Position numbers and translations under genes: made by a program. Positions 2,794 to 4,091 of a stretch of 25,697 bases of DNA are shown one piece after another (position 1 is the first letter of the stretch; each line of letters opens with the position of its first letter). Origin of the DNA: a virus. The notes under the pieces are model-generated. The model was not told the DNA's origin and did not search any database. It saw only the letters and a list, made by a program, of their open reading frames with translations. The DNA lies in the IMG/VR virus record IMGVR_UViG_3300037042_001087, positions 1 through 25,697 of that record, one strand, 5' to 3'.

Positions 2794-3087
2794 ATGAAAC
2801 GCACAATCCCACAAATCCGCGAACTGATCGCTGGGCTGACCGAGGAGAGCAAGACGCTCTCCCGTCGCCAGCTCTACATCGCCACCAAGATCGGCCAACT
2901 GGCCGAAGAGACGCGCCGCCGCAGCTACGAGCGTGCGCCAACCACCAGCCGCCGCGTGACGGCTGCCGTGCGCCTGTCCGTGCGCGTGATGGCCGCCAAT
3001 GACCCAGACATGTCGCATCAGGCTCTGGCCGAGGCGCATGGCATCAACATTGGTCGCGTCAGCGAGATCCTGCACGGCAAGCGATAA
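2794..3087 (+). CDS. Small helix-turn-helix DNA-binding protein, probable regulator
   Basis: I choose the ATG at 2794 because GGAGGAG lies at 2780-2786, seven bases upstream; an in-frame earlier start at 2746 would run through the inverted repeat. The resulting 97-residue protein is basic and helical. Residues about 62-95 (MSHQALAEAHGINIGRVSEILHGKR in part) form a helix-turn-helix in which HGINIGRVSEIL would be the recognition helix. The preceding half contains two Arg-rich helices. It is the first gene after the regulatory gap and reads into the methyltransferase gene. I infer a transcriptional regulator, possibly acting on the adjacent dyad. No named family is recognised. Confidence 0.7.
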   Translation: MKRTIPQIRELIAGLTEESKTLSRRQLYIATKIGQLAEETRRRSYERAPTTSRRVTAAVRLSVRVMAANDPDMSHQALAEAHGINIGRVSEILHGKR

Positions 3088-3089
3088 CC

Positions 3090-4091
3090 ATGCCTGCTTA
3101 CTATAACGAAATCGACCCTTACGCCGCCGCATGGCTGCGCAATTTGATCGACGCTGGGCATATCGCGCCCGGTGACGTCGACACCCGCTCGATAGAGGAC
3201 GTGACACCTGATGACATCCGAGGCTACACCCAATGCCACTTCTTCGCCGGGATCGGCGTCTGGTCTCATGCCCTACGACGCGCAGGCTGGCCAGACAGCA
3301 AGCCAGTCTGGACAGGCTCCTGTCCGTGCCAGCCTTTCAGCGCGGCAGGCAAAGGCGCAGGGTTTGCTGACGAGCGGCACCTCTGGCCAGCTTGGCACTA
3401 TCTCATCGAAGAGTGCCGCCCTCCAGTCGTCTTTGGCGAGCAGGTTGCAAGCAAGGACGGCCTTGGTTGGCTCGACCTTGTACAGGCTGACATGGAAGCA
3501 ACGGGCTACGCCCTCGGGCCGGTCGATCTATGCGCTGCGGGCATCGGCGCGCCGCATATCCGGCAGCGCCTCTGGTTCGTCGGAGAGCGGCTGGCCGACG
3601 CCAACGACGCGCGACTACAAAGGGCAGAGCGGCTCTGGTCGTCAGGAGAAGAAAGGCGACCCATCGGACACACTGCCCAACGCGGCGGTGACAGCGGGCT
3701 GGCCTACACCGACAGCGCTGGAGCGCAACGCAGGGCCGGAGACGATGGCGAAGCGGCGAGACTTTCGCAAGCAGAACGCCAACCAGTCGAACGTGCCGAT
3801 GTACCTGAACGAGGCAGCGCAGATCACGACGGACGCGCAGATGGCCGAAGCGATGGGGCATCGGGTGACGCCGCACGGCCCTGCCCGACTAACGGGCACT
3901 GGAGAGCTGCTGACTGGCTCTTCTGCCGAGATGGAAAGTGGCGGCCAGTTGAACCCGGCACATTCCCGCTGGCTCATGGGGCTACCAGCCGCGTGGGACG
4001 ACTGCGCGCCTATGGTAACGCAATCGTCGCGCAAGCAGCCGAAGAAGTGATCGCCACGTACATGGCGGATGAAGCATTGGACTTGCTATGA
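3090..4091 (+). CDS. dcm: DNA cytosine-5 methyltransferase
   Basis: The 333-residue product has C5-methyltransferase motifs in order: FFAGIG (residues 51-56, SAM-binding motif I), SCPCQPFS with the catalytic Cys at C80, a motif VI variant GEQV (E117) where ENV is usual, HIRQRLWFVG around residues 155-164 (motif VIII), and a C-terminal YGNAIVAQAAEE helix (motif X). It would methylate C5 of cytosine in phage DNA, probably to evade host restriction. A long low-complexity Ala/Gly/Arg/Asp-rich stretch (about 170-265) replaces an ordered target-recognition region. The same DNA also encodes a long frame in +1. The stop TGA overlaps the polymerase ATG (ATGA). Confidence 0.88.
   Translation: MPAYYNEIDPYAAAWLRNLIDAGHIAPGDVDTRSIEDVTPDDIRGYTQCHFFAGIGVWSHALRRAGWPDSKPVWTGSCPCQPFSAAGKGAGFADERHLWPAWHYLIEECRPPVVFGEQVASKDGLGWLDLVQADMEATGYALGPVDLCAAGIGAPHIRQRLWFVGERLADANDARLQRAERLWSSGEERRPIGHTAQRGGDSGLAYTDSAGAQRRAGDDGEAARLSQAERQPVERADVPERGSADHDGRADGRSDGASGDAARPCPTNGHWRAADWLFCRDGKWRPVEPGTFPLAHGATSRVGRLRAYGNAIVAQAAEEVIATYMADEALDLL
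3211..4050 (+). CDS. Long ORF nested in the methyltransferase gene (+1 frame), likely a real overlapping gene
   Basis: A 279-codon ATG frame lies wholly inside the dcm gene in the +1 frame. Unlike the antisense shadows, it holds features I associate with a recurrent phage protein type found beside dcm genes: STLYRLTWKQRATPSGRS, two GWPTPT motifs (one followed by TRDYKG), and a C-terminal LNPAHSRWLMGLPAAW followed by a SSRK basic tail. A GAGG at 3195-3198 precedes the ATG by 12 bases. In the last third both frames carry family-like motifs over the same bases. Function is unknown; a partner of the methyltransferase or an anti-restriction factor is a guess. The alternative is that it is a G+C-driven open frame. 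Confidence 0.55.
   Translation: MTSEATPNATSSPGSASGLMPYDAQAGQTASQSGQAPVRASLSARQAKAQGLLTSGTSGQLGTISSKSAALQSSLASRLQARTALVGSTLYRLTWKQRATPSGRSIYALRASARRISGSASGSSESGWPTPTTRDYKGQSGSGRQEKKGDPSDTLPNAAVTAGWPTPTALERNAGPETMAKRRDFRKQNANQSNVPMYLNEAAQITTDAQMAEAMGHRVTPHGPARLTGTGELLTGSSAEMESGGQLNPAHSRWLMGLPAAWDDCAPMVTQSSRKQPKK

Follow-up and report, generated by a model that had tools for sequence, protein, structure and literature searches.

A nested frame in a phage dcm gene most likely encodes the recognition and motif IX half of an m5C methyltransferase

Introduction

A viral contig carries a dcm gene, encoding a C5-cytosine (m5C) DNA methyltransferase, in which a second long reading frame lies open, and the locus raises the questions of whether this second frame is a gene and what its product contributes. 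The window analysed here is the whole stretch of 25,697 nucleotides (positions 1 to 25,697 of IMG/VR record IMGVR_UViG_3300037042_001087). In single-chain m5C methyltransferases, motif IX and the recognition region are part of a small, DNA-reading domain. Phage methyltransferases have an established role in the protection of phage DNA from host restriction. A sequence-only reading of the window had proposed that the two frames are a true overprinted gene pair, the nested product being possibly a methyltransferase partner or an anti-restriction factor. Here, we describe a comparative analysis of the two frames and of their relatives in nested, tandem and single-chain form.

Results

The nested frame within the dcm gene

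The two chains, designated alpha and beta, are encoded as follows.

3090-4091, + strand: alpha, the dcm-frame m5C methyltransferase catalytic chain with motifs I-VIII and X (333 aa)
3211-4050, + strand: beta, a nested +1-frame ORF, most likely the half with recognition modules and motif IX (279 aa)

The nested ORF begins with ATG, spans 281 codons from stop to stop, and lies wholly inside the dcm ORF in the +1 frame relative to it. It was found as the sequence-only reading had described it, together with every motif quoted there: GWPTPT at 3589-3606 and again at 3697-3714, STLYRLTWK at 3472-3498, and LNPAHSRWLMGLP at 3949-3987. That reading had also assigned motif X of one frame and RWLMGLP plus SSRK of the other to the same bases at about 3960-4050. 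The sharing holds for YGNAIVAQ (4011-4034), which overlaps the nested ...TQSSRK (SSRK at 4024-4035), but not for RWLMGLP (3967-3987), which lies just upstream of motif X and opposite PLAHGAT of the dcm frame. Upstream of the pair, at 2797-3087, is a 96-aa ORF belonging to phrog_23243 with a weak match to the phrog_1468 transcriptional repressor; it ends 2 nt before the alpha start and is therefore probably co-transcribed with the methyltransferase.

The catalytic chain

The features of alpha are listed below.

3240-3257, + strand: motif I, FFAGIG, from sequence and conservation
3315-3341, + strand: motif IV, GSCPCQPFS, with the catalytic Cys, from conservation and profile alignment to M.HhaI
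3435-3446, + strand: motif VI, GEQV, with G-E-Q invariant
3558-3578, + strand: motif VIII, IRQRLWF, from conservation
3585-3893, + strand: low-complexity linker on the same bases as the cassettes, unconserved yet stop-free in 160 of 161 loci
4011-4034, + strand: motif X, YGNAIVAQ, downstream of beta motif IX by 35 nt (G to G)

Alpha displays the hallmarks of C5-cytosine DNA methyltransferases, namely PCQ in motif IV, E-x-V in VI, QxRxR in VIII and GN in X, and its residues C80, E117, R158, R160 and N310 are invariant in 77 relatives. It matches phrog_363 over nearly its full length (1.1e-87). Its Pfam match, PF00145, is confined to residues 75-167; neither Pfam nor TIGR matches extend beyond about residue 168, and those in Pfam and the PDB stop after motif VIII. 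Between motifs VIII and X the dcm frame is low-complexity, as had been noted earlier, and unconserved. No motif IX was seen in the dcm frame; it is present in the +1 frame instead.

Several relatives have interrupted alpha frames. In Pseudomonas phage PMG1 (L003) the alpha N-terminus (AYYNEFDPYAAQWL...) is out of frame with the rest at about 1380-1460 and beta is intact; the alpha frame is interrupted and beta intact in L182, L183, L041 and L141; and on Klebsiella aerogenes NCTC9644 plasmid 3 (LR134256.1 / L168) the gene pair is apparently fragmented in both frames.

Selection acts on both frames

Loci were recruited from viral contigs separately with the nested protein and with the dcm protein alone. 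All 80 loci recruited with the dcm chain alone, and all 80 recruited with the nested chain alone, carry both frames, with an offset that is always +1. The tests of open frames and of substitution rates were made on these related sequences, the third frame and the flanks serving as internal controls. Breakage of the +1 frame by stops in relatives, named in the sequence-only reading as evidence against a gene pair, did not occur: the frame is open in 78 of 78 non-redundant relatives. Across these 78 dcm genes, +1-frame stops average 0.19 per gene against 3.77 expected from synonymous shuffles of dcm codons, and the remaining frame is not depleted of stops (13.5 against 11.5 expected). The openness of the +1 frame across the family is thus far beyond chance.

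The converse holds across the cassette region, where the dcm frame is stop-free in 160 of 161 loci, averaging 0.006 stops per locus where synonymous shuffles of the nested codons predict 3.35, and where the third frame matches expectation (7.90 against 7.92 stops). Fourfold third-position divergence of dcm is 0.67 before the overlap and 0.72 after it; inside, it is 0.44, 0.36 and 0.21 in three successive parts, reaching 0.057 at codons 286-300, where the nested frame reads LNPAHSRWLMGLP. Constraint on the nested frame is clear from about dcm codon 76 onward, and none is evident on nested residues 1-35. When like cassettes are compared (1,548 pairs), the rates of difference are 0.159, 0.111 and 0.379 at nested codon positions 1, 2 and 3, a protein-coding pattern in the nested frame; its second positions, whose neutral evolution would also have told against a gene, are the slowest in these modules.

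These comparisons bear on the possibility that the +1 frame is open through composition, or through a DNA- or RNA-level signal, rather than as protein. For the window gene taken singly, 97 of 10,000 synonymous-codon shuffles reach the same +1 open length, which is only moderately unlikely and leaves room for such an origin. The depletion of stops throughout the family, the codon-position pattern of the beta frame and the normal third frame make it extremely improbable, and we rejected composition or a DNA-level signal as the source of the open frame on the stop depletion and codon-position pattern. Comparison of relatives thus confirms the nested ORF as a real, selected gene, and the proposal of a true overprinted pair is borne out by selection in both frames.

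A contig labelled as a Bacteroidia bacterium MAG (L170, 3-377) carries the 3' half of the pair at 99.2% identity, with three differences, at nested positions 3, 2 and 2. Given this identity, the metagenome-assembled contig probably derives from a near-identical phage.

Beta resembles the C-terminal half of single-chain methyltransferases

Two segments of beta stand out by conservation.

3469-3498, + strand: conserved core GSTLYRLTWK, near-invariant in 69 relatives, overprinting the motif VI-VIII region of alpha
3949-3996, + strand: motif IX, LNPAHSRWLMGLPAAW, from fourfold divergence of 0.057 and hhalign to single-chain motif IX (5.6e-9)

Of 214 loci scored, 203 keep a spacing of exactly 35 nt between this second segment and the motif X that follows it in the other frame. 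Beta matches phrog_1008 (1e-32). It has no match in Pfam, NCBIfam or PADLOC, nor did a sequence search of the PDB return one. AlphaFold gave a poor model for beta by itself (pLDDT 59), and Foldseek with this model gave no PDB match.

The nested arrangement is common to hundreds of related phages. Beta frames are also found in far more distant ones, including N15 (gene 58), K1 phages, Rhodobacter phages, Paenibacillus phage Shelly, Stenotrophomonas SOVA965 and a spring-water podovirus; annotators have called them "g55 internal gene" (Shelly gp56) or "Mte8-like" (K1 phages) and gave no mechanism. The statement, in the sequence-only reading, that proteins of the GWPTP...RWLMG type occur beside dcm genes did not hold for window-type relatives, which lie inside dcm in every locus examined. 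A standalone window-type beta without alpha was sought among these loci and none was found; PMG1 and Cr-LKS3, considered as beta-only cases, were rejected, as alpha-frame sequence is present in both and merely unannotated. Only the beta frame is annotated, as a methyltransferase, and the catalytic alpha is missing from the annotation, in Mycobacterium phage Bipolar (gp69; L261, 1147-1698), FoX4 (L005), Cr-LKS3 (L006) and PMG1 (L003); other records have the reverse gap, with alpha listed and beta missing.

Homologues of beta outside a full nest, for which the sequence-only reading had called, do occur: in single-chain enzymes they form the C-terminal half within the one frame, and in actinophages they are mostly separate genes. 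Gp17 of prophi104-2 is a single chain with motifs I-VIII, LLPTP..D modules, LAAPFSEWMQGWPLGW and a motif X reading IIGNGVVPQQA, all in one frame; its catalytic part matches phrog_363, and its residues 209-412 match phrog_1008 (9.5e-63). The single-chain model is confident in I-VIII and in IX-X, and along its entire length it matches M.HhaI and M.HaeIII (~1e-13). The actinophages Stasia (gp76/gp75) and Catdawg (gp6/gp5) have tandem splits in which a +1-frame beta holds the modules together with IX and X; both beta proteins, Stasia gp75 and Catdawg gp5, match phrog_1008, motif X included. Among 63 further loci surveyed, single-chain forms were numerous and there were several splits. In profile comparisons, alpha aligned with the catalytic part of the single chains (1.9e-15), and hhalign of diverse beta chains against single chains aligned a PTP module and the WMMG segment (5.6e-9). 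This alignment, with the match to M.HhaI and M.HaeIII, identifies the nested LNPAHSRWLMGLPAAW as motif IX. The link between alpha and beta is supplied by the single-chain and tandem-split enzymes of actinophages.

An unrelated overprinted protein, such as an anti-restriction factor or a regulator, that merely shares the gene would fit the want of Pfam, NCBIfam and PADLOC matches. However, phrog_1008 places beta in one family with the C-terminal half that single-chain methyltransferases carry in frame, hhalign reaches 5.6e-9, and every locus examined that has beta also has alpha, so that we regard this explanation as very unlikely. The earlier suggestion of a methyltransferase partner is upheld and can be refined: beta is most likely the half of a frame-split m5C methyltransferase that recognises the target and supplies motif IX.

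The layout differs again in Gordonia phage JKSyngboy gp4 (L262, 1296-2360): motifs I-VIII, IX and X are in frame 0, and PTP modules occur only in the +1 frame, ending before IX. The prophi104-2 locus (Mycobacterium phage; L263, 756-2006) and several of L265-L316 are single-chain, yet have a PTP-type +1-frame stretch over motif VIII (GTWPTSGTTRNGQLL...LLPTPRATDG). These stretches over motif VIII are perhaps relics of a re-fused split ancestor, or the beginning of a split.

An internal start codon for beta

The beginning of beta falls within one short region.

3199-3213, + strand: probable beta start region, with ATG at 3211 here and, in most relatives, at the position of 3199

GAT is the codon for alpha D37 in 64 of 73 genes, whereas among Asp codons further upstream it accounts for 106 of 225 (p=3e-10); with the following G, the GAT at D37 creates an ATG in the nested frame. 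The ATG is present at the D37 site in 62 of 78 loci and at the window's 3211 site in 33 of 78, with at least one of the two in 70 of 78; the position of the beta start codon thus varies among relatives. Selection for the D37 ATG points to internal initiation rather than frameshifting.

A programmed +1 frameshift after motif VIII could instead join the catalytic half to the recognition (TRD)/IX half, with no separate beta. The colinear order of VIII (frame 0), modules and IX (+1) and X (frame 0) would suit it, as would the fusion of the halves in one chain in actinophages. We nevertheless consider a frameshift quite unlikely, since the +1 constraint starts well upstream of motif VIII (at about dcm codon 76), the internal ATG is selected (GAT at D37 in 64 of 73), and a single shift would drop motif X, which is conserved in frame 0.

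The WPTP cassettes

From the GSTLYxLTWK core to motif IX, beta is made up of WPTP cassettes of about 30-40 residues each. The window beta has two, of which the second segment is longer than this usual size.

3592-3699, + strand: cassette 1 (WPTPTTRDYKGQ...VTAG), which also occurs, at other places in the order, in L010, L066, L071, L084 and L171
3700-3879, + strand: cassette 2 (WPTPTALERN...TPHG), with a second copy in L009

The 162 distinct cassette strings almost always comprise 1-6 cassettes, most commonly 2-4, and a given cassette type can turn up at various places in the order, next to varying neighbours. Cassette 1 of the window is elsewhere 1 of 4, 3 of 5, 3 of 5, 2 of 5 and 1 of 4, in five loci that include a Yersinia genome. 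Tandem variable modules between motifs VIII and IX, the mark of multi-TRD enzymes, are thus present, and the WPTP cassettes look like swappable recognition modules.

Alternatively, the cassettes might be mere spacers in beta, with target recognition residing in alpha, for example in CRDGKWRPVEPGTFPLA. In favour of this, the alpha segment shows high conservation, the single-chain model has low confidence in the PTP cassettes and renders them disordered, and a review places the predicted TRD of M.EcoHK31I in alpha (PMC3404938). A strongly conserved segment, however, cannot account for varied specificity, whereas the cassettes vary in type, order and number and in single-chain relatives lie between VIII and IX, where TRDs are found. 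We therefore view a spacer role as somewhat unlikely, though a good deal less so than a frameshift, and favour recognition by the cassettes.

Discussion

We propose that the locus very probably specifies one m5C methyltransferase made as two chains from the same bases, alpha bearing motifs I-VIII and X and beta the cassettes and motif IX. Alpha, read in frame 0, would provide the AdoMet site, the catalytic cysteine and motif X, its motifs I-VIII and X being joined by a flexible linker that is presumably a passenger and need only stay open. Beta, read in the +1 frame, would be translated from an internal ATG and contribute the WPTP cassette array and motif IX, that is, the reading of DNA. The chains would assemble as a heterodimer, the active enzyme, in which beta sets the sequence that is methylated through cassettes acting as specificity determinants, and the phage would mark its own DNA against host restriction, anti-restriction by self-methylation being the likely purpose. 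Two-chain assembly is plausible, since complementation between fragments of split m5C methyltransferases is documented (PMC3404938).

By motif layout, the closest characterised enzyme is M.EcoHK31I. Lee, Kam and Shaw are said to have described in 1995 a beta chain of this enzyme encoded in an alternative frame inside alpha, and the window beta gene likewise lies in an alternative frame inside alpha. M.EcoHK31I (YGGCCR) consists of two polypeptides, alpha with motifs I-VIII and X and a smaller beta chain with IX (PMC3404938), and the window pair distributes its motifs in the same way. Unlike M.EcoHK31I, the window enzyme has a longer beta (279 aa) with a shuffled WPTP cassette array, and is phage-borne with no restriction gene seen nearby. 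The two-subunit m5C methyltransferase M.AquI shares with it a natural split between motifs VIII and IX, but has motif X with beta (PMC3404938), whereas the window motif X is in alpha; the M.AquI-type layout occurs here only in the actinophage relatives Stasia and Catdawg. The methyltransferases of Bacillus phages SPR, phi3T, rho11 and H2 are, as cited in PMC8936443, multispecific, with consecutive recognition modules between VIII and IX. The window array resembles these modules of phage self-protection enzymes, and the WPTP cassettes may likewise set specificity, but the SPR, phi3T, rho11 and H2 enzymes are single chains in one frame, unlike the window pair.

The nested protein is a member of phrog_1008 / phrog_31772, entries that are labelled just "DNA methyltransferase" and are silent on the recognition/IX half and on the overlap with phrog_363. 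Our literature search found no account of a phage-wide nested arrangement, and the frameshifting papers that it covered are silent on it too. A broader scenario, whose chances we put a little below even, is that a recombining library of cassettes is kept in one frame, the catalytic chain being tethered by what the same bases encode in the other, that specificity changes by swaps kept open in two frames, and that the design has switched again and again among its nested, tandem and single-chain versions.

The beta family, usually missed or mislabelled, would thus be a functional half of a very common phage enzyme, so that annotations confined to one frame lose half of it. The gene pair is among the broadest cases of long overlap with evidence of selection in both frames, and the arrangement would be explained as a single enzyme in two halves, for which single-chain and tandem relatives offer a comparison. 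If the cassettes set specificity, phage methylation targets would become predictable and re-programmable module by module.
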